Positions 5,156-21,760 of a DNA stretch of 64,000 nucleotides are shown piece by piece. Every line of letters begins with the position of its first letter. The stretch's first letter is position 1. This DNA is from Spiribacter sp. 2438 (GTDB lineage: Bacteria; Pseudomonadota; Gammaproteobacteria; Nitrococcales; Nitrococcaceae). Position numbers and translations under genes: made by a program. The DNA is taken from positions 620,001-684,000 of the forward strand of contig NZ_CP046046.1 of NCBI RefSeq assembly GCF_009676705.1, in the 5' to 3' direction. Below the pieces are notes generated by a model. The model was not told the DNA's origin and searched no databases. It was given only the letters and a program-made list of their open reading frames with translations.

Positions 5156-6112
5156 ATGGCACGCAAGAGTGGACGCGACGTTCACGGCATTCTGTTGCTG
5201 GACAAACCCCCGGGGCAGACGTCCAACCGGGTGTTGAGGCGTGTCAGTCGGTTGCTGGATGCGCGCAAGGCGGGGCACACCGGTAGCCTTGATCCGCTGG
5301 CAACCGGCCTGCTGGTGGCCTGCTTCGGCGAAGCTACCAAGCTGAGTGGCTGGTTGCTGGATGCCGACAAGACTTATGTGGCCACGGCCCGGCTCGGGGT
5401 CACGACGGACAGCGGCGACGCGGATGGCAGGCCACTCCAGGAGCGAGTCGTTCCACCTTTGGCTGCCGAGGCACTCGAGGAAATCCTTGCCGGATTCCGT
5501 GGCGAGCAACAGCAGATTCCTCCCATGTTCTCGGCGCTCAAGCATGACGGGCGACGCCTGCACGAACTGGCTCGAGCCGGGCAGACCGTGGATCGGCCAC
5601 CCCGTCGGGTGGTGATCCATGAGTTGCGCGGTGAACCGCTGTCCGCTGACCAGCTCCGTCTGGAAGTGCGCTGCTCGAAAGGCACCTACATCCGCAGCCT
5701 GGTGGAGGACATCGGTGAAAAGCTGGGTTGCGGCGCTCACGTTGAGACGCTGCGGCGCACCGGACTGGGGCCGTTCCGTGATCCGGCAATGCAGAGTCCT
5801 GAAGTGCTGGAGGCCGAGGTGGCCAAGGCGGGATCGGTGGAGAGCGTCGAGCGGCATCTCCTGCCCATCCATCTGGCACTATCCGAGCACCCCTCGGTAG
5901 CGCTGGACGGCCCGCGAACCCGGCGTTTTCAGCAGGGCCAGGCGGTCGAGGTGACGGCATCCCCCGACGCTGCCGCGACGGCCCATCCGAGTACGGATTC
6001 CATCGTGGCGGTCTTCGAATCGGAGGGCCGCTTTCTGGGAGTGGGCGAATGGGCCGGCGATCATTGGCTCAAACCCCGCCGATTGCTTGTTCACCGAACC
6101 CCCGAGGGCTAG
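5156..6112 (+). CDS. truB: tRNA pseudouridine(55) synthase TruB
   Basis: Encodes a 318-residue TruB that converts U55 in the T-loop of tRNAs to pseudouridine. The N-terminal [15 protein letters not shown] motif, the catalytic loop [12 protein letters not shown] with Asp46 as nucleophile, the [10 protein letters not shown] strand and the [11 protein letters not shown] motif are all intact. A C-terminal PUA-like region ends near 310. The TAG stop overlaps the -10 element of a candidate rpsO promoter. Confidence 0.97.
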
Positions 6113-6115
6113 AAT
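6087..6115 (+). promoter_or_regulatory. Candidate sigma70 promoter for rpsO-pnp
   Basis: TTGTTC (6087-6092), a 17-bp spacer and TAGAAT (6110-6115, five of six matches to consensus). The -10 element contains the truB stop codon. An internal promoter before rpsO is known in E. coli, which makes the match plausible, but the -35 is weak. Confidence 0.5.
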
Positions 6116-6156
6116 GCCCCATTCTGTTAAATCAGCAAGTTAACCAGGAGTCATTG

Positions 6157-6426
6157 ATGTCACTCAGCGCCCAGCAGAAGCAGGAGATTGTCCGTGATTA
6201 CGGACGCTCCGATGGCGATACCGGATCACCGGAGGTGCAGATCGCCCTTCTGACCGCCCGCATCCAGCATTTGACCGAGCATTTCGGTACTCATAAGCAG
6301 GATCACCATTCCCGCCGGGGCCTGCTGAAGCTGGTCAACCAGCGCCGGCAGCTCCTCGATTACCTGCACCGCAAGAGCCTCGAGCGTTATCAGTCCGTCA
6401 TCGAGCGACTCGGCCTGCGCAAGTAA
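6157..6426 (+). CDS. rpsO: 30S ribosomal protein S15
   Basis: Encodes S15, exactly 89 residues as in most bacteria, a primary 16S rRNA binding protein of the 30S platform. Signature blocks [32 protein letters not shown] and [12 protein letters not shown] are intact. The start at ATG 6157 has an AGGAG site 6 nt upstream; an upstream in-frame ATG at 6049 lies inside truB and would add non-family sequence. In E. coli S15 represses its own translation; I cannot demonstrate the corresponding pseudoknot here. Confidence 0.98.
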
Positions 6427-6460
6427 GGCCACCGATCAACAGACCAGGGGTGAGAACGCA

Positions 6461-8569
6461 GTGACTCCAACCGCCGTTAAAAAGTCCTTCCAGTATGGTG
6501 AGCAGACCGTCACCCTGGAAACCGGAAAAATTGCACGTCAGGCCTCCGGTGCCGTGCTCGTCAACATGTCCGACACCGTGGTGCTGGTCACCGTCGTCGG
6601 TAAGCGCGAAGAGGTGCCGGGACGCAGCTTCCTGCCCCTGACCGTGAACTATCAGGAACGAACCTACGCGGCGGGCAAGATCCCGGGAGGGTTTTTCAAG
6701 CGCGAGGGTCGGCCCTCCGAAAAGGAAACGCTAGTCTCCCGGCTTATCGACCGGCCCATCCGTCCGCTGTTCCCCGAGGGCTTCTCCAACGAGGTTCAGG
6801 TGATTGCCACGGTGATCTCCATGAACCCGGAAGTGGACGCCGACATCCCGGCGATGCTGGGTGCCTCGGCGGCACTGGCCATTTCGGGTGTGCCCTTCGA
6901 AGGCCCCATTGGTGCGGCCCGGGTGGGCTACAGCAGCGGCGAATTCCTGCTGAATCCGACTTTCAGCCAGGTCGAGACTTCCGAGCTGGATCTGGTAGTG
7001 GCCGGTACGCAGGACGCCGTCCTAATGGTGGAGTCCGAAGCGGATCGCCTGCCGGAACAGACCATGCTCGACGCCGTGCTGTTCGGTCACGAACAGATGC
7101 AGACCGCCATCAATGCCATTAACGAATTGGCCGCCGAGACCGGTAAGCCGCGCTGGGACTGGGCCCCGGCGCCGGCGGACGAGACCCTCGCGGAGCGGGT
7201 GCGCAGCCTGGCGGAGAGTGATCTGACCGCGGCCTACGGCGTGGCCGACAAGCAGGCCCGTCAGGATGCCATTGGCACCGTCCGCCAGCGGGTGCAGGCG
7301 GAGCTGGTCTCCGAAGACGACAGCGGGGAGGGCTACAGCGCCGAAGCGGTGAGTGACGCCTTCAAGACTCTCGAGAAGTCCATCGTGCGGGGCCGCGTAT
7401 TGGCCGGCGAACCGCGCATCGACGGCCGCGATCTGCACACCGTGCGCCCCATCGATATTGAGGTGGGCACTCTGCCGCGGACCCATGGCTCCGCCATTTT
7501 CACCCGAGGCGAGACCCAGGCGATCGTGGTGACCACCCTGGGGACCGGCCGCGACGCGCAGATCATTGACGCCATCGAGGGTGAGCGCCGCGAGCCCTTC
7601 ATGCTGCACTACAACTTCCCGCCCTACTGCGTCGGCGAGACGGGGTTCATGGGCAGCCCCAAGCGGCGCGAGATCGGTCACGGCAAACTGGCCAAGCGGG
7701 GCATTCAGGCAGTGATGCCGTCGCCGGAGGACTGCCCGTACGTGGTGCGGGTGGTCTCGGAGATCACCGAATCCAATGGATCGAGTTCCATGGCCAGTGT
7801 CTGTGGAACCAGCCTCTCCCTGATGGACGCCGGTGTGCCGATCAAGGCACCCGTGGCCGGTATTGCCATGGGCCTGATCAAGGATGACGACCGGTTCGCC
7901 GTGCTAACCGACATCCTGGGTGACGAGGATCACCTTGGCGACATGGACTTCAAGGTCGCCGGTTCCGAGGACGGTGTCACCGCGCTGCAGATGGACATCA
8001 AGATCAAGGGCATCACCCGGGAGATCATGGAGCAGGCGCTGGCTCAGGCCCGTGACGGCCGGCTGCATATTCTCGGCCGGATGAACGACGTCATCGCCGA
8101 GCACCGGGAAGAGATGTCCGCCTATGCGCCGCGGCTCATCACCCTGCGCATTGACCCGGAGAAGATTCGGGATGTCATTGGCAAGGGTGGCGCGACCATC
8201 CGTCAGCTCACCGAAGAGACCGGCACCACCATCGATATCACCGACGACGGCACCGTCACCATCGGTTCGGTGGACAAGGCCGCCGGCGAGGAGGCGCGCC
8301 GCCGTATCGAGCTGCTGACCGCCGATGTCGAAGTGGGTCAGGTGTATGAGGGCAAGGTCATCAAGCTGATGGACTTCGGTGCCTTCGTGAACATTCTCCC
8401 CGGCCGGGATGGTCTGGTGCATATCTCCCAGATTTCCAACCGGCGGGTGGAGACGGTGGCCGATGAGCTCAGCGAAGGTCAGGCGGTTCGCGTCAAGGTG
8501 CTTGAGGTGGATCGCCAGGGGCGGATCCGGCTCAGCATCAAGGCGCTGGAAGAGGCCACCGAAGACTGA
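6461..8569 (+). CDS. pnp: Polyribonucleotide nucleotidyltransferase (PNPase)
   Basis: Encodes a 702-residue PNPase, the phosphorolytic 3'-5' exoribonuclease and degradosome component. It has two RNase PH-like domains (about 10-145 and 310-545, the second with [18 protein letters not shown]), a linking helical domain, a KH domain with GKGGATIR (about 555-615) and an S1 domain ([22 protein letters not shown]) near 625-695. The start is GTG at 6461 preceded by a GGGGTGAG ribosome binding site. It is the last gene of the operon, 34 bp after rpsO. I see no RNase III-type leader hairpin in the short gap. Confidence 0.97.
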
Positions 8570-8593: not shown

Positions 8594-8620
8594 GCCCCGC
8601 TCTGCGGGGCGTTTTTTTTT
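8594..8620 (+). terminator. Intrinsic terminator of the rimP-pnp operon
   Basis: A perfect 8-bp stem CGCCCCGC / GCGGGGCG with a TCT loop is followed by eight T residues. The T tract overlaps the stop codon of the convergent exonuclease-fusion gene. Confidence 0.93.
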
Positions 8621-10703
8621 AGAAGGCCCGCTGCTGGCGGCGGAATTCGATCATCCGCTCCTGGGCAGCCACGGCGTCCCCGAGGGTATGGATGGACTCC
8701 CCCGGAAGAAGCGCCAGCAGTCGGATGAAAATTTCGGCGGTGGTGAGGGAATCGCCCAGGGCGGTGTGCCGACCGCCCACCCCGACGTCGAGCCGAGCGG
8801 CCACGCTCTCCATGGTGTGCTCACCGGTGTGGTCGTGGAGCATAATGGACAGCAGCAGGGCGTCCAGGGTGGGGTTGGCGAAAGTGATTCCGCAGATGCG
8901 CTGCTTCAGGCGCAGAAAACGCATGTCGAAGGCGATGTTGAACCCCACCAGAACGGCATCGCCGGCGAAGGCATGGAAACGCCGGATGACTTCTTCCACC
9001 GGAGGCGCCTCCGCCACATCTTCTTCGTGGATGCCGTGAATGCTGCTGGCCAGCGCCGGGATGCTCCGGCCGGGATTGGCCAGCAGCTCAAAGGTTTCGC
9101 CGTGCATCACCTGGCCCCGATGGATTCGCACCGCGCCGATGGAGACGATTTCATCGCCCTGGCTGGGTTCGAGGCCGGTGGTTTCACAGTCAAACACCAC
9201 GAAGTCCAGATCCCGAAGGGGGGTTTCCTTTGCCGTGCCCAGTGGACGGGTGTCTTCGTCCATGGCGAAGTCGTAAACCTCCGGGCGGGGCGGGACCACG
9301 GCCTGCGACTCCATTTTTTCGGGGGCCCCCGGCAGAGGCAGTCGAAGCAACGCCCGGCCGGTCCGTGACAGATCCGGTTGGCTCCAGGCGGTGGTGTCGT
9401 GGCGCTGCAAGACCTCCCGCAGCGTAACCGTGCCCCCCACATCATCGAGCCCGGCATCCAGCCACTCATCCAGGTGATCCGCAGAGACCACATCGCCGGA
9501 CCAGTTCATGTCCACGTACACGAGACTGCCTTCCTCACGGCCCGACAGGGCCACCGCCGTGACCCCCAGATCGCGGCGTAGCCGCATTAACAGCGCTTCG
9601 ATGACCTGATACAGCAGGTAAGGCTCCGCCGATAACCAGACATCGGCGCGGCACTGCAGGCGCGGCAGGCTTTCCGGGCCTCCGGCCTGACGGATGCCAT
9701 TGACCAGGCTGCCAAGATGAACATCTTCCAGGCGCCAGTTCGCCGTCAGGGCTGAGGAGGTCTCCCGGGACAGGTGGGCAAACCGTTCCGTCAATTTGTC
9801 CCGTTCTTCACTGATGATGTCGGTGAACTGGCCGACCTCCTGCTGCAACCCATGCTGATGGGCCAGTCGCAGGCTCTCCGTGGCAGCGCCCAGACTGGTG
9901 AGCGGGTTACGCAGGCTCTCGACGGCCGCCCGGAGCGCCTGTTCCCGACGCAGGGACTCCCGGGTTTCCCGGGAAACGTCCTGCAGGGTCATCACAAACC
10001 CCGAGGTGTCCGGATCCTCGGTGATCAGTCGGGCCACCCGGCAGCGGAGAAGACGCTCGCCACTGGCGGTGGCGCAGACCAGTTCGGCATCACTGGCAGC
10101 GCCCTCGCTGGTGAGCAGATCCAGGGTATGGCGCAACGGACCCTCGTTGAGCACTTCACCCACCCGCCGTCCCAGACCGAGGGCGGGTTCGGTGGAGAGC
10201 AGGTCGCGGGTGGTTCGATTGTAGAGCCGAATATGGCCCTCGGTGTCGCACACCATGACGCCTTCCCGAATTTCGCGAAGGATGGTCTCCAGCCGGGTTT
10301 TGCGGGCCTCAACCTTGGTGGTCCATGCCGCCGCAGCGGCTTCCAGGTCACGTCGCGAGCGGGCGATGCTAGCGGCCAGCGTGGACAGCGTATCCGGGAG
10401 GCGCTCCAGCCAGTGGCTGCCGCTCAGTTCCAGTCGGTGACCGGGGTTGGTGCCGGCCATGATTTCAGCGCCACGGATGGTGGCCACCAGCGGTTTGGCC
10501 AGACGCCGGTCGATCACCACGCCAATGATCAGGAGAAGGGCGGTGGGCAATCCCAGGGCGACGCCCAGCCAGGCAATTGGCACGGGCGGCCCGGTTGGCA
10601 GCCAGGCCCACGCACCCAGGGTAATCGCCCACTGCAGAAAGATCGCTCCGGCAATGGCCAGCCAGCACCGTCGTCGCAGGCGTGGCAGCCGGAACGCCCT
10701 CAT
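8619..10703 (-). CDS. Membrane PAS/pseudo-histidine-kinase fused to DEDDh 3'-5' exonuclease
   Basis: 694 residues. Two N-terminal membrane segments (about 12-34 and 42-62) are followed by a HAMP/coiled-coil stretch, a PAS domain (about 145-245) and a histidine-kinase-like dimerisation helix in which the phospho-acceptor His is replaced by Glu262 (ESLRNPL where kinases have HELRTPL). The following ATPase-like region lacks a clear N box. The last ~195 residues are a DnaQ-type exonuclease with all DEDDh motifs: DCETTG (Asp505, Glu507), GFNIAFD and HTALGD. It is therefore probably a membrane sensor without kinase activity coupled to a nuclease. It lies 3 bp after a response regulator gene in the same direction. 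DnaQ-like genes next to CBS/DUF294 and acetate permease genes occur in other gammaproteobacteria. The in vivo substrate is unknown. Confidence 0.85.
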   Translation of the reverse strand: MRAFRLPRLRRRCWLAIAGAIFLQWAITLGAWAWLPTGPPVPIAWLGVALGLPTALLLIIGVVIDRRLAKPLVATIRGAEIMAGTNPGHRLELSGSHWLERLPDTLSTLAASIARSRRDLEAAAAAWTTKVEARKTRLETILREIREGVMVCDTEGHIRLYNRTTRDLLSTEPALGLGRRVGEVLNEGPLRHTLDLLTSEGAASDAELVCATASGERLLRCRVARLITEDPDTSGFVMTLQDVSRETRESLRREQALRAAVESLRNPLTSLGAATESLRLAHQHGLQQEVGQFTDIISEERDKLTERFAHLSRETSSALTANWRLEDVHLGSLVNGIRQAGGPESLPRLQCRADVWLSAEPYLLYQVIEALLMRLRRDLGVTAVALSGREEGSLVYVDMNWSGDVVSADHLDEWLDAGLDDVGGTVTLREVLQRHDTTAWSQPDLSRTGRALLRLPLPGAPEKMESQAVVPPRPEVYDFAMDEDTRPLGTAKETPLRDLDFVVFDCETTGLEPSQGDEIVSIGAVRIHRGQVMHGETFELLANPGRSIPALASSIHGIHEEDVAEAPPVEEVIRRFHAFAGDAVLVGFNIAFDMRFLRLKQRICGITFANPTLDALLLSIMLHDHTGEHTMESVAARLDVGVGGRHTALGDSLTTAEIFIRLLALLPGESIHTLGDAVAAQERMIEFRRQQRAF

Positions 10704-10706
10704 GGT

Positions 10707-11081
10707 TCAGGCGGCCTCTCGGACCAGCTCCTGTACCCGTCCCAGGACTTCGGTGGGATTGAAAGGCTTGACGATGAAATCCATGGCGCCAAGGGAAATC
10801 GCTTTCTGGCGTTCCATGGCCAACTCCTGGGTGGTCAGCATCAGCACCGGAAGATGACTGCAGTGGGGCAGGGCCAGCAGGGCCTGGCAGAGCTCATAGC
10901 CGCTGCGGTCCGGCAGCGCGGTATCCAGGAGCACCAGGTCCGGCTGACACGTCTCGACGCTGTCCAGGGCTTCCCGAAAACTGCAGGCGGTCTGAACATT
11001 GAAACCGGAGTGTGCCAGAAGAAAACCCAGGCAGGCGCTGATGTTGGCTTCGCTGTCGACGATCAGAATATTTTTATACAT
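10707..11081 (-). CDS. Single-domain response regulator
   Basis: A 124-residue stand-alone receiver domain: phospho-acceptor Asp53 (VLLDTALPD), acidic pocket Asp9/Glu11 (IVDSEAN, with Ser replacing the second of the usual adjacent acidic pair), Thr in MLTTQE and Lys in DFIVKPFNP. There is no output domain. The start at ATG 11081 (MYKNILIVD) is chosen over an in-frame ATG at 11120 that would add 13 Arg-rich residues. No good ribosome binding site precedes 11081; a 10-codon open frame with a strong site overlaps it, so coupling is possible. It sits 3 bp before the sensor-exonuclease gene and presumably works with it. Confidence 0.88.
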   Translation of the reverse strand: MYKNILIVDSEANISACLGFLLAHSGFNVQTACSFREALDSVETCQPDLVLLDTALPDRSGYELCQALLALPHCSHLPVLMLTTQELAMERQKAISLGAMDFIVKPFNPTEVLGRVQELVREAA

Positions 11082-11106
11082 TTTGACGCTTCGATGCCCG
11101 GGGCAT
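11074..11106 (-). CDS. Possible 10-residue leader peptide overlapping the response regulator start
   Basis: ATG at 11106 is preceded by AGGAGG at 5 nt spacing and encodes MPRASKRQNV then TAA. The stop overlaps the response regulator ATG by 8 nt. The regulator itself has no convincing ribosome binding site, so translational coupling through this mini-frame is plausible. It may equally be chance. Confidence 0.3.
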   Translation of the reverse strand: MPRASKRQNV

Positions 11107-11108
11107 CG
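11092..11108. repeat. Perfect inverted repeat in the divergent intergenic region
   Basis: CGATGCCC, one central base, then GGGCATCG form a perfect 8-bp dyad. It covers the start codon of the possible leader peptide and lies about 20 bp downstream of the candidate promoter. It could be an operator or a small RNA hairpin that hides the leader start. Confidence 0.5.
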
Positions 11109-11129
11109 CCTCCTCCTCATTTTCTTCCC

Positions 11130-11203: not shown

Positions 11204-13108
11204 ATGGACCACGCTGAAGCCGACACCGGTCGGTCCGAAATCGCCCGCGATTTTCTGGATTCCCAGTCCCCCTTCGATCGATTCACCCGTCGCTTGAAGT
11301 CCTACTTTCTCGACCAGTGTGAGGTGTGTCGGTTCAACCGGGGCGAGGCCATTCTTGAACCCGGGGATGGACGGGTCGGGTATTTCTTTCTGGTGGTGGA
11401 GGGCCGGGTCAAGGCGGAGCGCCCGGGTGTGACTGAGGCCGGCGAAGAGCGCTTCGAGCTGGACAGTGGTGACAACTTCCCCATGGCGGCGCTGCTCGGG
11501 CAGCGGGCCACCCGCACCGTGTACACCGCCGCCACCGATGTCACCTGCCTGCGGCTGCCGGCTGCGGCCTTTGAGTATCTGCTCGGCCAGAGCCCGGAAT
11601 TCCGCGATTACTGCCTGCGGGGGGTCAGCAGCCTGCTGGACCAGATGCAGCGGGATATCCAGCAACACGCGGCAGGAACGTTGGGTGGGGACTCCTCACT
11701 GGATACGCCCCTTGGCAGCATGATGCATACCGACCCCGTGGCCTGCACCCGGGAGTTGAGCATTCGGGATGCGGTGGAGCGGATGCATCAGCGCAAGGTG
11801 GGCAGCATGCTGGTGGTGGACGGTCGCGGTGCGCCGTTGGGGATATTCACCCTCCACGATCTGCGGACGGTCATCGCCCAGGGTGTCGATCTGGGGGCGA
11901 ACATCGGCGAGGTCATGACCCCTGACCCCTGTGTGTTAACCACCGATACCTATGCTTTTGAAGCCGTGGTGGAAATGGCCCGGCGTCACATTCGGCATAT
12001 CGTGATCGCCGATCAGCGGGGACGCCTCGCCGGGGTGATCTCCGAGCGGGACATTTTCGCGCTCCAGCGCATCAACCTGGTTCATCTGGCACGGGCCATC
12101 ACCAGTGCCGATGACGTCGAGTCGCTGGTGCGGGCCCGGGATGACGTGGGGCCGCTCATCGACACCATGATGGCCCACGGCGCCGGTGTTGAGCAGATCA
12201 CCCGCATCATCACGCTGCTTAATGACCGGACCGTGACCCGCGCCATTGAGTTGTGCCTGGCCGACCATGGCGACCCGGATGTGTCCTTTACCTGGATTGC
12301 CTTTGGCAGTGAGGGGCGCAGTGAGCAGACCCGGGTGACCGATCAGGACAATGCCATTCTCTTTGACCCGGGCAGTGAGTTCGCGGATAGCGTCCGGGAG
12401 CGGCTGCTGCCGCTGGCCCGGGAGATCAATGAAGTGCTGGATCGCTGCGGATTCAGCCTGTGTACCGGCAACATCATGGCCAGCAACCCGGCTCTCTGCC
12501 TGAGTTTTGACGAGTGGGAGTCAACCTTCGGGCGGATGATTGCCAGTGCTACGCCGGAAAATCTGCTCAAGTCCACCATCTATTTTGACTTCCGATCCGT
12601 GTGGGGGGATCTGACGGCCGGGGATGCACTGCACACCCGCGTGGTGGAAATGGCCTCCCGGAACCGGGTTTTCCTGAAGACCATGGCGGGCAACAGCATG
12701 GCGATCAAGCCGCCGCTGGGCATGTTTCGGGACTTCTCCACCGAAAAGGACGCCGATGGCGTCAATCGTCTGGATATCAAGGTGCGTGGTCTCACGCCGT
12801 TTGTGGACTCGGCCCGGGTGCTGTCCCTTGAGGCGGGCATCGCCGAATCCAACACTCCCCATCGACTGCGTGGCCTCGCCGAGGCGGGCTTCCTGACACG
12901 GGAGGATGCCGGGGCATTCGAGCGCTCGTTTGCGTTCATTCAGTTGTTGCGGATGCGTGAGCATCAGCGCCAGGCGGCAGCGGGTGAGACCATGGGCAAT
13001 CGGCTTGATCCCGACGCCCTCAACCCCATGGATCGGCGCATCCTCAAGGAGGCGTTCCGTGAGGCCCGCCGGTTGCAGAAAAAGCTGGAAGTCCGCTATC
13101 AGCTCTGA
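11204..13108 (+). CDS. cNMP-binding/CBS-pair/DUF294 nucleotidyltransferase-like signalling protein
   Basis: 634 residues in four parts: a cyclic-nucleotide-binding-like barrel (about 25-150), a tandem CBS pair (about 170-300), a nucleotidyltransferase fold related to the GlnD N-terminus (DUF294) with motif GSEGRSEQT (368-376) and Asp380/Asp382 (TDQD), and a helical DUF294 C-terminal domain ending with an EAFREARRLQKKLE helix. The conserved nucleotidyltransferase residues are present, so transfer activity is possible, but no substrate is established for this family to my knowledge. CBS domains usually sense adenine nucleotides. It is divergent from the response regulator/exonuclease genes and convergent with the symporter gene, an association also known in other gammaproteobacteria near acetate permease genes. 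Confidence 0.9.
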   Translation: MDHAEADTGRSEIARDFLDSQSPFDRFTRRLKSYFLDQCEVCRFNRGEAILEPGDGRVGYFFLVVEGRVKAERPGVTEAGEERFELDSGDNFPMAALLGQRATRTVYTAATDVTCLRLPAAAFEYLLGQSPEFRDYCLRGVSSLLDQMQRDIQQHAAGTLGGDSSLDTPLGSMMHTDPVACTRELSIRDAVERMHQRKVGSMLVVDGRGAPLGIFTLHDLRTVIAQGVDLGANIGEVMTPDPCVLTTDTYAFEAVVEMARRHIRHIVIADQRGRLAGVISERDIFALQRINLVHLARAITSADDVESLVRARDDVGPLIDTMMAHGAGVEQITRIITLLNDRTVTRAIELCLADHGDPDVSFTWIAFGSEGRSEQTRVTDQDNAILFDPGSEFADSVRERLLPLAREINEVLDRCGFSLCTGNIMASNPALCLSFDEWESTFGRMIASATPENLLKSTIYFDFRSVWGDLTAGDALHTRVVEMASRNRVFLKTMAGNSMAIKPPLGMFRDFSTEKDADGVNRLDIKVRGLTPFVDSARVLSLEAGIAESNTPHRLRGLAEAGFLTREDAGAFERSFAFIQLLRMREHQRQAAAGETMGNRLDPDALNPMDRRILKEAFREARRLQKKLEVRYQL

Positions 13109-13205: not shown

Positions 13206-14999
13206 TCAGGATCGGGGCACGCGAATGCTTTCCACCAGATCCTGGATGTCCTTCGGCGGCGGTGCAGTAACCCGTGAGACGGCGTACGCCACCACGAAGT
13301 TACACAGTGCGCCAATGGCACCGAAGCCCGTCGGGTTGATGCCGAACAGCCAGTATTCGGCCGTATCCGGCAGGGTCAGGAACCCCGGGAAGCCCGGGAA
13401 GAAGAAGTAACCCTTGTAGGTGAAGATGTACACCAGCGTGACCAACAGGCCGGTGAGCATGCCGGCAATGGCGCCCTGCTTGTTCATGGTGCGCATGAAG
13501 ATGCCCATCAGGAGCGTCGGGAACAGACTGGCTGCCGCCAGACCGAACGCCAGTGCCACCACCTGCGCCGCGAAGCCGGGTGGGTTCAGACCCAGGTAAC
13601 CGGCGAACAGAATGGCACCCGCCATACTGAGGCGAGCCGCCCGCATCTCTCCCCGTTCGCTGATATTGGGTTTGAATACCCCCTTCAGCAGGTCATGGGA
13701 GATGGCGGAGGCGATCGCCAACAGCAGGCCGGCGGCCGTCGACAGGGCGGCCGCGATGCCACCGGCGGCCACCAGGGCCACCACCACGGCTGGCAGATTC
13801 GCGATTTGCGGATTGGCCAGCACGATGATGTCCCGGTCAACGATCATCTCCGAACCCTGCCAGCCCTGCTCTTCAGCAAAGGCGGCCATCTCCGGATCAT
13901 CTTCGTTGTAGTACTGCAGGAAGCCATCATCATTGAGATCGGTGGTGTCCAGCAGGCCAGTGGCTGCCCAGTGGCGCATCCAGTCCGGCTGGTTCTCTTC
14001 GGCCAGCCAGGCATCCGGCTCGGCGAGGGCCTCGCGGTTATCCCAGATCTCCGTGGGCTCCGCGATGACTGTATTGAGCGTGTTCCACATGGCCATGGCG
14101 CCCACCGCCGGCGCGGTGGTGTAGAGAATGGCAATGAAGAACAGCGTCCAGCCGGCGGACCGGCGGGCATCACTCATCTTGGGCACGGTAAAGAAACGGA
14201 CGATCACGTGGGGCAGGCCCGCCGTACCGATCATCAATGAGAGGGTCAGCAGGAACATGTTGGCCATCGTCATGCCGCCCAATTCGCTGTAGGGCGCGAA
14301 GCCGATTTCCACCAGTGTTTTGTCCAGAGCGGTGATCAGATGCTCGCCCGTACCGGTGGTACCGCCCAGACCGATCTGCGGTATCGGCACTCCGGTGATG
14401 GTGAGTGAGATAAACACCGCCGGGACCGTGTAGGCAAAAATCATCACGCAGTACTGAGCAATCTGCGTGTAGGTAATGCCCTTCATGCCGCCGAACACGG
14501 CGTAGATAAACACCACCGCCATGCCGGATATCAGGCCGATCTCCAGGGGCACCTCGAGGATGTTCGAGAAGGCGATGCCCACGCCCCGCATCTGCCCGAT
14601 CACGTAGGTAATCGACATGGCGAGCAGTGACACCACGGCAATGATCCGGGCCCCCTTGGAATAGAACCGGTCACCGATGAATTCGGGCACCGTGAACTTG
14701 CCGAATTTCCGGAGGTAAGGCGCGAGCAGCAGGGCCATCAGCACATAGCCGCCGGTCCAGCCCATCAGGTAAGCGCCACCGGAGTAGCCCAGGAAGGCAA
14801 TCAGGCCCGCCATGGAGATGAAACTGGCCGCCGACATCCAGTCCGCCGCCGTCGCCATGCCGTTGGCCACCGGGTGAACACCCTTGCCAGCCACGTAGAA
14901 CTCGGAGGTGCTGCTGGTTCTTGCCCAGATCGCGATGCCGATGTACAGGGCGAACGTCAGCCCCACCACCGACAGATTAAGAAGTTGCTGTGCATCCAT
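13206..14999 (-). CDS. Sodium/solute symporter, large subunit (VC_2705 subfamily, acetate-type)
   Basis: A 597-residue inner-membrane protein of the SSS family with about 13 hydrophobic segments. Family signatures include FYVAGKGVHPVANGMATAADWMSAASFI near the N-terminus and GLPHVIVRFF. Its partner is the small DUF4212 protein just upstream (24 bp gap), the hallmark of the VC_2705 two-subunit subfamily. Downstream position relative to acs suggests acetate or another short carboxylate as substrate. Unusual is a long soluble insertion (about 305-385) rich in acidic residues, with a DxNxDG loop at 354-359 resembling a calcium-binding loop. Substrate assignment is inferred from context. Confidence 0.9.
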   Translation of the reverse strand: MDAQQLLNLSVVGLTFALYIGIAIWARTSSTSEFYVAGKGVHPVANGMATAADWMSAASFISMAGLIAFLGYSGGAYLMGWTGGYVLMALLLAPYLRKFGKFTVPEFIGDRFYSKGARIIAVVSLLAMSITYVIGQMRGVGIAFSNILEVPLEIGLISGMAVVFIYAVFGGMKGITYTQIAQYCVMIFAYTVPAVFISLTITGVPIPQIGLGGTTGTGEHLITALDKTLVEIGFAPYSELGGMTMANMFLLTLSLMIGTAGLPHVIVRFFTVPKMSDARRSAGWTLFFIAILYTTAPAVGAMAMWNTLNTVIAEPTEIWDNREALAEPDAWLAEENQPDWMRHWAATGLLDTTDLNDDGFLQYYNEDDPEMAAFAEEQGWQGSEMIVDRDIIVLANPQIANLPAVVVALVAAGGIAAALSTAAGLLLAIASAISHDLLKGVFKPNISERGEMRAARLSMAGAILFAGYLGLNPPGFAAQVVALAFGLAAASLFPTLLMGIFMRTMNKQGAIAGMLTGLLVTLVYIFTYKGYFFFPGFPGFLTLPDTAEYWLFGINPTGFGAIGALCNFVVAYAVSRVTAPPPKDIQDLVESIRVPRS

Positions 15000-15023: not shown

Positions 15024-15296
15024 TTAGTCGACGTCGAATTCGCGATCGAGTCGGTTCATGTACCAGGCGTAGAAAAAAATCAACGCGAGGAACACGTAGA
15101 TGGAACCCTGCTGGGCGATAAAGAACCCCAGGGGATAGCCCCCGATCGAGCCCAGCGCATTGAGCGTTGGTCCGAGCAGGACACCCAGGAGCAGCGATAC
15201 CGTTGCCCATATCGTTAGCAGGATGGTGATGACCCGGATGTTTCGTCGCCAGTATTCGCGGCGGCCGGTGTCTTGTTGCTGATTGCTCTCAGCCAT
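15024..15296 (-). CDS. DUF4212 small subunit of the sodium/solute symporter
   Basis: A 90-residue membrane protein with two hydrophobic segments (about 22-45 and 53-78). YWRRNIRVITILLTIW and FFYAWYMNRLDREFDVD match the DUF4212 family, which is nearly always encoded immediately upstream of a VC_2705-type symporter. A GGAGGAG ribosome binding site precedes the ATG. The 208-bp gap to acs upstream holds a dyad and a weak sigma54-like site, so it may have its own promoter. Confidence 0.9.
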   Translation of the reverse strand: MAESNQQQDTGRREYWRRNIRVITILLTIWATVSLLLGVLLGPTLNALGSIGGYPLGFFIAQQGSIYVFLALIFFYAWYMNRLDREFDVD

Positions 15297-15504: not shown

Positions 15505-17442
15505 TCATTGATTGGCGCGGTTGCTGATGAGCTCATCCACCACCGAGGGATCCGCCAGCGTGCTGGTATCCCCCAGACTGTCCAGCTCGTTGGTGGCCAC
15601 CTTGCGAAGGATGCGCCGCATGATCTTGCCGGATCGTGTCTTCGGCAGGCCGGGTGACCACTGAATGACATCCGGTTTGGCGATGGGACCGATTTCTTTC
15701 CGCACCAGGTCGGTCAGCTCCTTCTGCAAGCCGTCATTGGGTTCCACGCCGGTCACCAGGGTGACATAGCAATAGATCCCCTGGCCTTTCACGTCATGGG
15801 GGTAACCCACCACGGCGGCTTCTGCCACGGCGTCATGCAGCACCAGTGCACTCTCGATTTCGGCGGTGCCCATGCGATGGCCCGAGACGTTCAGCACATC
15901 ATCCACCCGGCCGGTGATCCAGTAGTACCCATCCTCGTCCCGGCGGGCACCATCACCGGTGAAGTACTTGCCGGAATAAGTGGTCAGGTAGGTGTTCATG
16001 AAGCGCTCATGATCGCCGTAGATGGTGCGCATCATGCTGGGCCAGGCCCGGGCAATGCACAGGTTGCCCTCGGTGGCGCCCTCCAGCACGTTGCCCTCGT
16101 TGTCCACCAGCTGTGGCTCAACACCGAAGAAGGGCAGTGTGGCGGATCCCGGCTTCAGGTCGATGGCGCCAGGCAGGGCGGAGATCATAATGGCGCCGGT
16201 TTCCGTCTGCCACCAGGTATCCACGATCTGGCACCGCTCGTCGCCCACCACCCGGTAGTACCATTCCCAGGCTTCGGGGTTGATGGGCTCGCCGACGGTC
16301 CCGAGGATCCGAAGGCTCGCACGGGAGTGCTTTTTGACCAGTTCTTCTCCCAGTCCCATCAGCGAGCGGATGGCCGTGGGAGCGGTGTAGAAAATGTTCA
16401 CCTGGTGGTCGTCAATGACCTGCCAGAAGCGGCCGGCATCGGGGTAGGTGGGGACCCCCTCGAAAACCAGTGTGGTGGCGGCGTTGGACAGTGGCCCGTA
16501 GACGATATAACTGTGCCCGGTGACCCAGCCCACGTCCGCGGTGCACCAGTAGACCTCACCGTCGTGATAGTCGAAGACATACTTGAAGGTCATGGAGGCC
16601 TGTAGCAGATACCCGCCGGTGGTGTGCAGCACGCCCTTGGGTTTACCCGTGGATCCGGAGGTGTAGAGGATGAACAGCGGGTCCTCGGCATCCATTTCTT
16701 CCGGCGCGCACTCCGGCGACGCCTCACTGATCGCCTCCTGGTACCAGACATCCCGATCCGGATTCCACGGGACCTGGTTACCGGTGTGGCGGACCGTGAT
16801 GACGGTGTGTACGGAATCCAGGCCATCCAGGGCCTTTTCCACGTTCTCTTTCAGGGGCACCGGCTTGCCACTGCGCAGCCCCTGATCGGCGGTGATCACT
16901 GTTCTGCAGTCAGCATCCTCGATGCGGTCCCGGAGCGCGTGAGGCGAAAATCCACCGAAGACAATCGAATGCACTGCGCCGATCCGCGTGCAGGCCAGCA
17001 TGGCCACCACGGCTTCCGGGATCATCGGCATGTAGATGGACACCCGGTCGCCCTTGGCCACTCCGCGCTCTTTGAGGACATTGCTCAGCCGGCAGACCTC
17101 CTCGTGCAGCTCGCGGTAGGTGATGCGCCGGACGTTGCCGGGTTCATCGCCTTCCCAGATCACCGCATGACGGTCGCCATGGGTCTCCAGGTGTCGATCC
17201 AGGCAGTTGTAGCTCACATTGAGCTTGCCACCCTCAAACCAGCGAATCTGGCCTTTGCTCAGATCGTTGTTGCTGACCCGGTCCCATTTGCGAAACCAGG
17301 TCAGGAATCGATCCGCCTGTTCGGCCCAGAAAGACTCGGGTTCATCCAGAGAGCGCCGATACATGGCCTCGTATTCACCCTGGGTGAGCAAAGCGTTATC
17401 AGCCACTCCCTGGGGTACCGGATAGATTTTACTTGCAGACAT
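15505..17442 (-). CDS. acs: Acetyl-CoA synthetase
   Basis: A 645-residue AMP-forming acetyl-CoA synthetase (acetate + ATP + CoA to acetyl-CoA). Visible motifs: adenylation loop [12 protein letters not shown], the W-W-Q-T-E-T-G motif around 410-420, [20 protein letters not shown], and the C-terminal TRSGKIMRR with Lys606, the residue acetylated for inactivation in homologues. The start at ATG 17442 is preceded by AAGGAGGAG. It begins 51 bp after the CbrB-like regulator gene and is followed by the symporter pair, so uptake, activation and regulation are clustered. Confidence 0.97.
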
Positions 17443-17493: not shown

Positions 17494-18828
17494 TCACCCT
17501 GCCTGTGTTTTGCGGAGCAGACCAGTTCGCTGGCGTCGCTCCCACAGGGCTTTACGGCTTATACCGAGGCGTCGGGCAAGTTCTGTTTCGGTGAGTTCCC
17601 CCTCGTGGGCGCGAACGAACTCCTGAAAATATTCCTCCAGTGACAGGCTAAGCGACCGGGCGCTTGCCCGATTGCCATTCACTGGCAGGGCCAGGGTCTC
17701 GACCGACACCTCGTTGTCGTCACTGAGGATGACGGCTCGCTCGATGATGTTTTCCAACTCCCGCACATTGCCCGGCCACGGATAGTGCTGGATGGCCTCC
17801 ATGGCGTCATTGGTGAGCGTCATGCTCGGTCGATTCAGGCGTCGACAGGATTTTTCGAGCATAAACTGTGCCAGCTCGGGCAGGTCATCCATTCGTTCGC
17901 GCAGGGCAGGGAGCTCGATTTCCATCACATTGATCCGGAAATACAGGTCACTTCGAAAGCCCTCCTGTTCCACCAGTGCGCCGAGATCCCGGTTAGTGGC
18001 GGCCACCAGGCGAATGTCCACCCGGCGGCCCTGATCGGCGCCCACCCGGCGGATTTCGGATTCCTGCAGGGCGCGTAACAGCCGCGCCTGGGCACTGCCT
18101 GGCAATTCGGCAATTTCGTCCAGAAAAAGGGTGCCGCCACTGGCCGCCTCGATCAGCCCTTTGCGAGGGGCATCGGCACCGGTGAATGCGCCTTTCTCGT
18201 GGCCAAAAAGCTCGGCTTCAATGAGGGACTCCGGAATGGCGGCGCAGTTGACCGCAATCAGCGGACCGCCGCGACGGGGGCTCTCCTCGTGGAGGGCGCG
18301 TGCAACCAGTTCCTTGCCGGTGCCGGACTCCCCGAGAATAAGCACCGTGGTGTCCGTGGGCGCCACCCGCTGGATCCGCTGGAGGACTTTCTGCATGGGC
18401 TGGCAATGACCAATGATTCCGTGAACCGGATAGGCCTCATCGATCTGGGCGCGCAGGGCCGCATTCTGTCGCCGCATGGCGTACTCCCGCAGCGCTCTCT
18501 CCACGGTCAGGCGCAGTTCGTCGTTATCAAAGGGCTTGGCGATATAATCCACCGCGCCACGTCGCATGGCATCCACCGCCGACCGGACGCTGGCATAGCT
18601 GGTCATGATGATGACCGGCGTGTCGCCAGCCAGGTCGATGATATCCATGCCATCCCGCCCGGGTAGCCGGAGATCGGCCAGTACCAGGTCATGGTTGCCG
18701 AGCGGCCCGTCGCGGAGGGCCGCTTCCACGGACTCGGCACCCTGGGCGTGCAGACCCGCCTTGACCAGGAGCCGGACGATGGCTTCCCGGATGACTTTTT
18801 CGTCTTCGATGATGAGGACGCTAGCCAC
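17494..18828 (-). CDS. Sigma54-dependent response regulator, CbrB/NtrC type
   Basis: 444 residues: receiver domain (Asp52 in LADLRLPG), sigma54-interacting AAA+ domain (Walker A GESGTGK at 166-172, GAFTGA loop, GGTLFLDEI Walker B), and a Fis-type helix-turn-helix (ELARRLGISRKALWERRQRTG) at the C-terminus. The start is taken as GTG 18828, which overlaps the sensor kinase stop by 8 nt; longer in-frame starts lie inside the kinase gene and would add non-receiver sequence. gluQ-small membrane protein-sensor-NtrC regulator is the gene order I know for cbrA-cbrB in Pseudomonas. Likely target here: acs and the symporter. Confidence 0.93.
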   Translation of the reverse strand: MASVLIIEDEKVIREAIVRLLVKAGLHAQGAESVEAALRDGPLGNHDLVLADLRLPGRDGMDIIDLAGDTPVIIMTSYASVRSAVDAMRRGAVDYIAKPFDNDELRLTVERALREYAMRRQNAALRAQIDEAYPVHGIIGHCQPMQKVLQRIQRVAPTDTTVLILGESGTGKELVARALHEESPRRGGPLIAVNCAAIPESLIEAELFGHEKGAFTGADAPRKGLIEAASGGTLFLDEIAELPGSAQARLLRALQESEIRRVGADQGRRVDIRLVAATNRDLGALVEQEGFRSDLYFRINVMEIELPALRERMDDLPELAQFMLEKSCRRLNRPSMTLTNDAMEAIQHYPWPGNVRELENIIERAVILSDDNEVSVETLALPVNGNRASARSLSLSLEEYFQEFVRAHEGELTETELARRLGISRKALWERRQRTGLLRKTQAG

Positions 18829-21760
18829 TGGCGGGTACTGCCTCCGTTTCGGTGGCAAGGGGCAGGCGCAGCACCACCTGGGTGCCTTTTTGCCGGCCAC
18901 GACGGGGCTGGATGCTCAACTCGCCGGCGCATTCGCTAATGATGGCCCACGCCAGCGACAGGCCGAGACCCGTGCCCTTGCCGGGTGCCTTGGTGGTGAA
19001 AAAGGGTTCGATGACCTTGTCTTTGATGGCTTGATCGATGCCATGGCCATCATCAACCATCCGGATGACCGCATTGCCGCGTTGGCGGCGGGCGCTGAGA
19101 GCAATTTTTCCGCCAGGTTCGCAGGCGTCCATGGCATTGGTGTAGAAGTTCACGAACACCTGGACCAGACGCTGGTGTCCCGTCAGAACACTCAACGTCG
19201 CGGGAATATCGCGGCTGAAGTGCAGCGTTTTGGCCCGTGGGTTCAATCGCACCAGGCGTTCCGCTTCTTCGGCGGCGCTCGCCAGTGAGGCCCGTTCCAC
19301 GGCGCCGTTGCCCGTCGGCGGGCCGGCGTGGGCGTAACCCACCAGCGCCTGGACAATGTGGGTGATCCGCTGGGTCTGTTGCAGGATCTCCGTGGCGCGA
19401 TCGTCGTTGGTGTGTTCCTCCCGCCACTCCTGGGCCAGGCAGTCAATGGCCGTCACTGGATTACCGATTTCGTGGGCCACACCGGCGGCCAGGCGGCCGA
19501 TAGAAGCAAGCCGCTCGCTGTGGGCCAGCTCGTGCTCCAGTCGCTGCACATCGGTGACATCTTCCAGCAGGATCAGGCGGTCGGCGTTCTCGTCGCCATC
19601 GGGCTCGCCGATCATGGCTTTGTGCAACGTCAGCCAGCGCTCCCCGGCGGGCAGGCTGACCGGGCGCTTGTGAGCCTGGTCAACCGGCTCCTTGAGGAAT
19701 TGCTCCAGCAGTGCTCCCCAGGGGGCCGGGAGTTCCCGCAGGTGGCGCCCCAGTACCGCATGATCGCCCAGGCCGGTCAGGGTCCGGACCGCCGGATTCC
19801 AGCGGGCAATTCGTCCCAGCCGGGTCACTGCCACGACGCCGAGGGGCAGGTCTTCCAGTATCTGGCGGTGGTAGCGGCGCAGCGCGTCCAGTTCCGCGGC
19901 GATGCCCCGCAGACCGCCGCCGTGCCGCTCCAGCCGTTCTTCGATGATGCGGACGTTCTGAGCCAACGCGGTTCGGTGATCGGTATCCAGTCGCAGGCAC
20001 TGATCGACGATGTCCCGGGCCAGCACCGGTCCCATCATGCCGGATAGATTCCGCTTGACCTGATCGCGGAGCTGATGGAGGCGGTCCGGGCGGCTTTCTG
20101 TCCAGTCCAGCCCGGCATCCTGTAGCGCTTTGACGATCTCTCCATGCGCGGCGGGCGCGCCGGTGACCGGGGTCAGTTGCTCCACGAACTGCGCCGGCGA
20201 CCGGGCCACCAATGCGCCCGAGGGAACGTCGGTGATCACCCCGCGACAGGCATTGGCCGCCTCGGACTCGCCGCTGTCCTGCCGGGAGAGCAGTGACACC
20301 GCCGCAAAAACCACGGCGTTGACACTCACCGTCCAGAACGTCAACCGTCCGAAGTGGCCGGCGGTCTGGGCAGCACCCAGATCCAGACCGATCAGCTGAA
20401 TGGGCCCCACCGTCACGAGGGCCGGGAACAGCCCGGCGATCCCCCAGATGGCACCGCCGGCTATCAGCCCGGCCAGAAATCCCGCTCGGGTGGCCCCCTG
20501 CCAGAAGAGCATGGCGAGCACCCCGGGGATGAGCTGAGCCATGGCCAGAAAAGCGATCAGCCCCCAGGAGACCAGTGCTTCGGTCCGGTCCAGGCTCAGA
20601 TAGAACAGATAGCCCGCAGCGATAATGATGGCAATCAATGCACGGCGAACCCAGCGGAGGGTGGCATAGAGGTCATTGAGCGGTGCCAGGCGCATCAGCG
20701 GCAGGACGAGATGATTGAGGCACATGGAGGACAGCGCCAGGGTCGAGACAATGATCATGGCGCTGCCCGCGGAGATGCCCCCCAGATAGATGAACAGTGC
20801 GATGGCCGGATTGCCGGTGAGCTGGGAAATACCCAGCACGGTGTAATCCGTGGGCACGTTCAGGGCCAGCGCCTGGCCCGCCCAGAGCAGCGGAGGAACC
20901 GCGGCGGCCAGCAATAGCAGAAAAAGCGGGAAGGCCCAGCTGGCGGTGCGCAGGCCGCTGTCACCGAGGTTTTCGATGAACAGCATGTGAAATTGCCGGG
21001 GCAGCAGGAAGGCCGCAGCAAAGGCGAGGAACAACAGCCCGGTCCACTCCTGACCGGCCACGGGCGCCATGAAGTGCTCCAGGCGTTCGGGATTGGCAGC
21101 CAGCCAGTCTCCCAGCCCCTGCCAGCCACCGAAAGCCATGGACACCGCAATCACGGCCACCAGCAGCAGGGCGGCGATTTTCACCAGTGATTCGAAGGCA
21201 ATGGCGGCCACCAGGCCGCTGTGTTTTTCCCGCGGCGTGACATGGCGGGCGCCGAAAACGATGGCAAAGACCGTGACGATGATGCAGAACACCACCGCCA
21301 CGGGCTCGGTGGCGGTGTCGGTGCTGAGGATCTGGGTCGACTCGGCCACCGCCCGGATCTGCAGGGCGATGTAGGGGAGGCTGCCGGTCAGGATCATCAG
21401 GGTGACCAGCACCCCGGCCAATCGGCTGTCAAAGCGGAAAGCGAACAGATCCGCGACCGAGGTGAGCTGATGACGGCGGACCAGCCGCAGTAACGGCATC
21501 AACAACAGGGGCGTCATCGCAAAGGCGATGGTGACGCCGATGTAGATGGTGGCAAACAACAGCCCCGAGCTGCTGGCAAAGCCGACGCTGCCGTAGTAGC
21601 TCCAGGTGGTGGCATAGACGCCCAGTGACAGCACGTAGACCGCTGGATGGCGAACCACCGCCGCCGGGATCCAGCGGCGCTCCGTGGCATGGGCAATGAG
21701 AAAAAGCAGGCACAGGTACCCCACGGCGGCCAGGAACAGGGTGGCGGGGTTAAAGACCAT
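18821..21760 (-). CDS. CbrA-type sensor histidine kinase with symporter-like N-terminus
   Basis: 979 residues. The first ~500 form a sodium/solute-symporter-like module with about 13 membrane segments (for example YATTWSYYGSVGFASSSG). A PAS domain follows (about 630-740), then the HisKA box GVAHEIGNPVT with phospho-acceptor His763, and a complete HATPase (N box NFYTNAMDACEPGG, DDGHGID, FFTTKAPGKGTGLGLS). This is the CbrA/CrbS architecture, which controls carbon-source or acetate use. It is encoded just before its regulator and 11 nt overlapped by a small membrane-protein gene. The ligand cannot be read from sequence; acs next door makes acetate plausible. Confidence 0.94.
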   Translation of the reverse strand: MVFNPATLFLAAVGYLCLLFLIAHATERRWIPAAVVRHPAVYVLSLGVYATTWSYYGSVGFASSSGLLFATIYIGVTIAFAMTPLLLMPLLRLVRRHQLTSVADLFAFRFDSRLAGVLVTLMILTGSLPYIALQIRAVAESTQILSTDTATEPVAVVFCIIVTVFAIVFGARHVTPREKHSGLVAAIAFESLVKIAALLLVAVIAVSMAFGGWQGLGDWLAANPERLEHFMAPVAGQEWTGLLFLAFAAAFLLPRQFHMLFIENLGDSGLRTASWAFPLFLLLLAAAVPPLLWAGQALALNVPTDYTVLGISQLTGNPAIALFIYLGGISAGSAMIIVSTLALSSMCLNHLVLPLMRLAPLNDLYATLRWVRRALIAIIIAAGYLFYLSLDRTEALVSWGLIAFLAMAQLIPGVLAMLFWQGATRAGFLAGLIAGGAIWGIAGLFPALVTVGPIQLIGLDLGAAQTAGHFGRLTFWTVSVNAVVFAAVSLLSRQDSGESEAANACRGVITDVPSGALVARSPAQFVEQLTPVTGAPAAHGEIVKALQDAGLDWTESRPDRLHQLRDQVKRNLSGMMGPVLARDIVDQCLRLDTDHRTALAQNVRIIEERLERHGGGLRGIAAELDALRRYHRQILEDLPLGVVAVTRLGRIARWNPAVRTLTGLGDHAVLGRHLRELPAPWGALLEQFLKEPVDQAHKRPVSLPAGERWLTLHKAMIGEPDGDENADRLILLEDVTDVQRLEHELAHSERLASIGRLAAGVAHEIGNPVTAIDCLAQEWREEHTNDDRATEILQQTQRITHIVQALVGYAHAGPPTGNGAVERASLASAAEEAERLVRLNPRAKTLHFSRDIPATLSVLTGHQRLVQVFVNFYTNAMDACEPGGKIALSARRQRGNAVIRMVDDGHGIDQAIKDKVIEPFFTTKAPGKGTGLGLSLAWAIISECAGELSIQPRRGRQKGTQVVLRLPLATETEAVPASG

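Follow-up and report, generated by a model that had tools for sequence, protein, structure and literature searches.

A predicted PAS pseudokinase fused to a DEDDh exonuclease recurs beside receiver and acetate-type uptake genes in proteobacteria

Introduction

Histidine kinase cores and 3'-5' exonucleases are joined in one predicted protein, P0001, encoded in the 64,000-nucleotide stretch of the genome of the halophile Spiribacter sp. 2438 analyzed here (the window; NZ_CP046046.1, positions 620,001 to 684,000). A sequence-only reading of this gene had described a membrane sensor built from a dead kinase and attached to a complete exonuclease. The locus raises the questions of whether the fusion is genuine, what could control its nuclease, and on what the nuclease could act.

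Results

Domain organization of P0001

The gene and the parts of its product are as follows.

8619..10703, minus strand: P0001, predicted membrane PAS pseudokinase-exonuclease, 694 aa (ORF, family alignment, model)
10296..10682, minus strand: residues 8-136, two likely membrane helices and a HAMP-like coil (model, family profile)
9966..10295, minus strand: residues 137-246, PAS domain (PAS_4; WalK PAS structures by family profile)
9744..9974, minus strand: residues 244-320, DHp-like two-helix segment (model helices, profile alignment)
9318..9743, minus strand: residues 321-462, degenerate CA (ATPase-like) domain with N box, G1 Asp and G2 box lost
9918..9920, minus strand: Glu262 codon, in place of the phospho-acceptor His (family alignment)
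9501..9503, minus strand: Trp401 codon, in place of the G1-box Asp (family alignment)
8634..9221, minus strand: residues 495-690, DEDDh 3'-5' exonuclease domain (D505, E507, D593, H646, D651)

The reading frame is single and unbroken in the ORF list. A structure model built from 72 aligned relatives reached a mean pLDDT of 88.4 with a pTM of 0.51, so the domain arrangement and inter-domain geometry are not relied on here. In the model, N-terminal helices at residues 8-34 and 43-84 are separated by a loop of about eight residues, and positions 10-133 of the family profile resemble a sensory-rhodopsin transducer (E 1.4e-6); the protein is likely to be anchored in the membrane. The Pfam scan placed PAS_4 at residues 144-246 (1.3e-7) and RNase_T at residues 502-659 (1e-29), with a sub-threshold HisKA match at residues 253-304 and no HATPase_c match, and found no RNA-binding domain in P0001.

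Since the structural matches listed for the whole model were taken up by the exonuclease, the kinase part was folded and searched separately. The model has DHp-like helices at 244-283 and 287-320, which align by profile with histidine kinases and DivL, followed by a mixed alpha/beta domain at 326-459. Positions 46-475 of the family profile match the VicK-like kinase 4i5s (E 8e-24), and the profile also matches the DivL structure 4q20 (E 1e-7), with the NifL structure 9qq6 among its other matches. Both sequence profiles and model thus place a DHp and CA fold in the family despite the lost motifs.

The losses are consistent across the 145 aligned members. None has His at the acceptor position, which is occupied by Glu in 99, Arg in 17, Asp in 8, and other residues or gaps in 21. 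A scan of the same members detected no H-box pattern anywhere in the protein, which also disposes of normal HELRTP or N boxes aligned elsewhere, and N-box and G2-box patterns were found in 0/145; the G1 pattern occurs in one member, inside the exonuclease part. The G1 Asp position (401) is Trp in 143 members and invariant in the 72-row and 40-row alignments, and Pfam HATPase_c matched 0/40 members at E 0.01. The CA-like fold keeps residues of its own, including W401 (143/145), H435 (139/145) and W440 (131/145). Judged from alignments and model, the histidine-kinase core of P0001 is a predicted pseudokinase, as the sequence-only reading had proposed from Glu262 and the unrecognizable N box.

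That reading had further suggested that Glu262 mimics a permanently charged state. In favour of a residue that imitates phospho-His and holds the protein in constant signalling, Glu (99) and Asp (8) predominate there; the Glu/non-Glu state at position 262 changes 16 times on a 106-row tree compared to a shuffled mean of 29.7, so it is kept within clades. However, Arg stands there in 17 of the 145 members, and in the same 106 rows the position ranks only 12th in conservation among 75 DHp positions, behind Arg265 (96%) and Glu300 (95%), with Arg265 and Trp401 far better conserved. Glu262 is not what the family conserves best, and we regard the constant-state explanation as very improbable.

The exonuclease active site has complete catalytic residues in 144/145 members. 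P0001 carries the full Asp, Glu, Asp, His, Asp set and an RNase H-like fold in the alignment and model, and its DEDDh exonuclease looks intact. The DnaQ/Pol III epsilon model TIGR01406 scored 84.8 bits against an equivalog cut-off of 222.7, and NF004316 scored 77.2 against 196, whereas the broader domain model TIGR00573 was passed (79 against 71.5). The overall anatomy, a dead kinase core with intact exonuclease residues, is predicted with high confidence from the alignments and the model.

Distribution of the fusion

P0001 matched proteins in 44 of 59 relatives at E 1e-20, in 40 of them in one frame over both parts. Larger samples were searched at E 1e-40, a match being counted from the match rows as full span when it covered both sensor and nuclease. 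As lower bounds, with 2 to 7 candidates scored per genome (2 in the phylum sample), matches were obtained in 22 of 370 genomes in the class sample, 53 of 397 in the sample of the phylum Pseudomonadota, 35 of 150 in family f96, and 19 of 289 in the class of genome G586; of these, 19, 35, 32 and 9, respectively, were full span. The 18 partial matches among the 53 from Pseudomonadota cover mostly the nuclease. In a scan of named genomes, the best 80 of 424 confirmed loci came from alpha-, beta- and gammaproteobacteria and from some metagenome bins otherwise labelled. Matches also came from 35 plasmid records, most of them from Paracoccus; in 24 the match spans at least 80% of the protein. Relatives in plasmid records carry annotations such as "3'-5' exonuclease", "exonuclease domain-containing protein" and "DNA polymerase III subunit epsilon". 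The proteins of L074 and of L002 (G003), from the genus of the window, are identical.

This recurrence across genomes rules out a frameshift or gene-fusion artefact joining two genes, and the pseudokinase-exonuclease fusion is a real and widespread architecture. No published description of the fused family was found in the open literature, to which the search was largely confined, subscription journals being mostly uncovered.

Two other identities were considered for the gene. It had no match in a phage collection at E 1e-30. The PADLOC matches of the fusion (a CRISPR-associated DEDDh model and PDC-S48) are confined to the nuclease half and the gene context is not defence-like, so a defence gene was rejected as well; PADLOC also gave a weak TIR-effector match (5e-4) for the DUF294 protein of the window.

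A quick tree of 61 exonuclease domains, whose key forks have 89-93% SH-aLRT with several marked open and which does not include the Pseudomonas putida protein PP_0353, grouped the fused domains together with L069 and L070 nested among them, and placed stand-alone DUF294-linked exonucleases apart, at two positions. L069 is an ORF of 217 aa within the fused group, so the exonuclease domain can exist without the sensor.

Several variant loci were also observed. L070, L272, L276, L277 and L279 are shorter ORFs, of about 470-510 aa, that match the query in the nuclease part only. In one genus member (L025 and L202, G008:C1:1035656-1037724) the fusion frame is broken around residues 400-438, by either pseudogene formation or an assembly error. 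In L049 (G049:C123, ORF 6024-8096, plus strand), which adjoins acs and CrbS-like kinase genes, the kinase residues are gone and so is most of the nuclease active site; the product is possibly a double-dead regulator.

Genomic neighbourhood

The genes next to P0001 in the window are listed below.

10707..11120, minus strand: stand-alone receiver (REC; Response_reg 9.6e-25)
11204..13108, plus strand: cNMP-CBS-DUF294 nucleotidyltransferase-like protein (DUF294 6.9e-42, DUF294_C 1.4e-44, CBS, cNMP_binding)
13206..14999, minus strand: VC_2705-family sodium/solute symporter (TIGR03648, 801 bits, cut-off 321)
15024..15296, minus strand: DUF4212 small protein (PF13937 3.5e-33)
15505..17442, minus strand: acetate--CoA ligase, acs (TIGR02188, 1040 bits, cut-off 725)
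17494..18900, minus strand: receiver and sigma54-type regulator, NtrC/AtoC-like (below all equivalog cut-offs shown)
18821..21760, minus strand: symporter-fused sensor kinase, presumably CrbS-like (HATPase_c 4e-18, HisKA 7.4e-7, PAS_4)

The REC gene lies upstream of the exonuclease gene and ends 3 bp before its start; its product keeps the phospho-Asp D66 and has Ser at acid-pair residue 23. The DUF294 gene, the next gene beyond and divergent from it, encodes a GS...DxD motif. The sigma54-type regulator scored 414 bits with the AtoC model (cut-off 714) and 406 with the NtrC model (cut-off 559). In the kinase, which we take to be CrbS-like by its architecture, the HEIGNP, N, G1 and G2 boxes are all intact; no SSF match was detected at 0.01, and its first part aligns at 36% identity with residues 19-649 of the L087 symporter-kinase. 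Further along the window, translations inspected by eye gave an aldehyde-dehydrogenase-like gene (24688-26208, minus strand) divergent from a sigma54-type regulator gene (26422-28305, plus strand).

The same neighbours recur elsewhere. We compared 80 loci having at least 5 kb of upstream and 4 kb of downstream sequence, taken from 115 non-identical ones; they are the closest relatives of the query and not a random sample, six come from the genus of the window, and G016 was excluded as a duplicate locus. A REC gene lies within 600 bp of the fusion in 61/80 loci, and 59 of the 62 REC genes found within 1500 bp are directly upstream on the same strand. Among the 19 loci with no REC within 600 bp, eight have Arg262. 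Within 9 kb, where flank was available, DUF294 occurs in 56/80 loci, an SSS symporter in 49/80 and acs in 22/80, and a symporter-kinase was found in 21/80 by our first criterion or 45/80 by a phmmer criterion (E <1e-40, at least 450 aa). Kinase ORFs similar to CrbS by the phmmer criterion lie within 600 bp in 42/80 loci, and in 39 of these the H, N and G1 boxes are present. DUF294, a symporter, a symporter-kinase or acs, alone or in combination, occurs in 76/80 loci, and three loci (L103, L125, L131) lack all four and REC. As a rough chance yardstick, about 1 in 80 flanks would hold DUF294, given one to few such genes per genome. DUF294 was also detected in 44/44 relatives with a P0001 match versus 3/15 without.

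Two annotated Paracoccus clusters each run in one direction. The gene order is acs-DUF4212-symporter-DUF294-hypothetical-REC-exonuclease in P. denitrificans and CBS(DUF294)-hypothetical-kinase-REC-exonuclease in P. ferrooxidans, where all four junctions have 4-bp overlaps. As a separate observation, the single fusion in each of the clusters L033-L039, L041-L044 and L046 is accompanied by two or three DUF294-type matches; in most of these clusters the acceptor position is Arg, and many lack a REC within 600 bp. Taken together, the REC, DUF294, symporter, acs and symporter-kinase context, on which the sequence-only reading was silent, suggests control via a receiver besides the PAS domain.

Parallel loss of receiver residues and symporter-kinases

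Residues 23 and 66 of the REC protein are Asp in 78/78 loci outside the genus of the window, a set without G016; an overlapping set of 163 pairs has two further non-genus receivers with Glu23. Judged by the best E-value per genome, 13/24 genomes contain a HELRTP-type symporter-kinase sharing 52-57% identity with the L087 protein (split over two frames in G030), and none was found in G016, G018 or the nine members of the genus that were searched. Of 13 genus members, 12 have Ser, His or Asn at residue 23 and four (G001, G002, G012, G013) have Asn at residue 66. Exactly these four yielded no CrbS-like protein, and D66 is kept in 8/8 members having one (G000, G004, G005, G006, G008, G009, G010, G011), G003 being outside this comparison. 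This pattern, read from sequences, is as expected if symporter-kinases feed the fusion-linked receiver. The genus members, and the four Asn66 members among them, are close kin, so the co-decay may represent one or two events. G016 counts against a simple rule, since its REC (L015/L284) has His23 and Glu66 though the genome holds a CrbS-like protein; Glu66 is a possible built-in phosphomimic. Because residue 23 of the window receiver is Ser, a full phosphorelay is not to be assumed in the window.

Proposed control of the exonuclease

We propose that the fusion is a DivL-like pseudokinase which would sense the receiver and gate its own nuclease in an acetate or related monocarboxylate module, with docking, gating and substrate all inferred; this reading could as readily be wrong as right. 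DivL has no kinase or phosphatase activity, binds DivK~P via its normal docking face, and has PAS domains that tune its binding preference, according to passages of PMC4211667. In the proposed route, a symporter-kinase would phosphorylate the stand-alone receiver, which would bind the DHp-like bundle in the way that DivK~P binds DivL. Docking, together with PAS and membrane input, would alter the dimer and thereby switch the C-terminal exonuclease. The target of the exonuclease could be an RNA or a nucleotidylated product linked to the use of acetate or related monocarboxylates, and the DUF294 enzyme may take part. In the window's genus, where no HELRTP-type symporter-kinase was found and the receiver is partly degenerate, the receiver may work without normal phosphorylation, or the CrbS-like kinase may supply its signal. 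In 163 REC/fusion pairs (Neff 87), no clear DHp-REC interface stood out by mutual information: the strongest pairs run through REC residues 102-105 and look like subgroup markers, and the block of DHp helix 1 against REC helix 1 contained two of the top 0.2% of pairs. The 19/80 loci lacking REC within 600 bp, the three loci with none of the partners and the two non-genus receivers with Glu23 also count against the proposal.

Alternatively, PAS and membrane input alone could drive the nuclease, the receiver having another target and the DHp-CA part being a mere dimer stalk. The PAS domain is well conserved, with N162 invariant in 72 rows, and this explanation accommodates both the 19/80 loci lacking REC within 600 bp and the sensor-free L069. 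On the other hand, most loci have REC directly upstream on the same strand, and the residues kept by the CA-like fold (W401, H435, W440) exceed what a stalk seems to need. We consider it on the unlikely side and hold the receiver link of the fusion with moderate confidence.

Candidate substrates

Confidence in the substrate is low, and two versions were weighed. In the first, the exonuclease would undo or trim the work of the DUF294 enzyme, which would attach nucleotides to a protein or to the 3' end of an RNA. Besides the 56/80 fused loci with DUF294 within 9 kb, a DEDDh exonuclease match lies within 1.5 kb of DUF294 in 21 (20 stand-alone, 1 fused) of the 30 best DUF294 loci in a class sample, and RNase_T occurs within 8 kb at no fewer than 23 of 48 DUF294 places (at least 23, picked by eye among the matches listed plus one place in the window's own genome). 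In that genome, another DUF294 gene is followed after 702 bp by a separate RNase_T gene (G000:C1:1300705-1302332, L184). Fused and stand-alone exonucleases separate in the quick tree, so DUF294 and the exonuclease may have been paired on more than one occasion. However, pyruvate growth in P. putida was slowed in the PP_0353 mutant and not in the mutant of its operon partner PP_0354, as described in passages of PMC9927547. We hold this version tentatively, at less than even confidence.

In the second version, the exonuclease would degrade mRNAs of carbon-use genes, as the authors speculated for stand-alone PP_0353 in the same passages (PMC9927547). These also report that PP_0353 deletion impairs growth on pyruvate and that ErdR binds the promoter region of its operon. 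Against it, the absence of an RNA-binding domain from P0001 leaves no evident means of mRNA choice, and the closest structures of the exonuclease are polymerase proofreading exonucleases, though RNase T and other RNases match as well; we judge this version doubtful. Growth of P. putida on 20 mM acetate was not slowed by deletion of either PP_0353 or PP_0354 (PMC9927547), which we count against the acetate-module reading. In P. fluorescens, a cAMP-binding/CBS/nucleotidyltransferase protein belongs to the CrbS/R regulon and its mutant had no phenotype (PMC5715377).

Combining the first substrate version with receiver control gives a two-component pathway ending in a nucleotidylation cycle and not in transcription. 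The symporter-kinase and receiver would gate the pseudokinase-exonuclease, which would remove the nucleotides that the DUF294 enzyme attaches to a protein or to the 3' end of an RNA; acetate or pyruvate supply would then directly set the modified state. We regard this extended scheme as unlikely.

Discussion

NifL is a kinase-like protein controlling NifA. The fusion resembles it in combining PAS with a kinase-like core (matches to 9qq6), but has another partner and output, NifL being without a nuclease. Like Caulobacter DivL, the fusion has a dead acceptor and a retained kinase fold, and a single-domain receiver is co-encoded with it in 61/80 loci within 600 bp; unlike DivL, it also lacks the N, G1 and G2 boxes and carries an exonuclease, and receiver docking is proposed here by analogy. 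If the receiver link holds, the fusion would be a variant of receiver-sensing pseudokinases with a nuclease output.

With PolC-type and DnaQ proofreading exonucleases P0001 shares the nuclease fold, but it falls below the proteobacterial epsilon cut-off and is fused to a sensor. PP_0353/PP_0354 of P. putida offers a similar setting, an RNase_T exonuclease beside a CBS-domain protein in an acetate/pyruvate context; passages of PMC9927547 describe the pair as a stand-alone RNase_T protein and a CBS-domain protein forming a target operon of MxtR/ErdR. The presence of DUF294 in PP_0354 we infer from the partial description of the P. fluorescens counterpart (PMC5715377). In contrast to the fusion, no sensor part is described for PP_0353 in those passages, and DUF294-linked stand-alone exonucleases group apart from fused ones. 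CrbS/CrbR (PMC5715377) and the other SLC5-STAC systems (CbrA/B, RpuS/R) are likewise built on symporter-fused kinases, whose targets or neighbours include acs or symporters. However, they are described with response regulators that control transcription, whereas the fusion loci have a stand-alone receiver and an exonuclease.

The recurrence of the fusion, often near acetate-type uptake genes, may point to signalling whose end point is a nuclease and not a gene switch. Record names such as exonuclease or DNA polymerase III subunit epsilon hide what is apparently a signalling protein. If the receiver gates the nuclease, the family would show DivL-like reversed information flow with an enzymatic output on nucleic acid, and would give a testable role to the DUF294 nucleotidyltransferases and stand-alone receivers that lie beside symporter-kinases.
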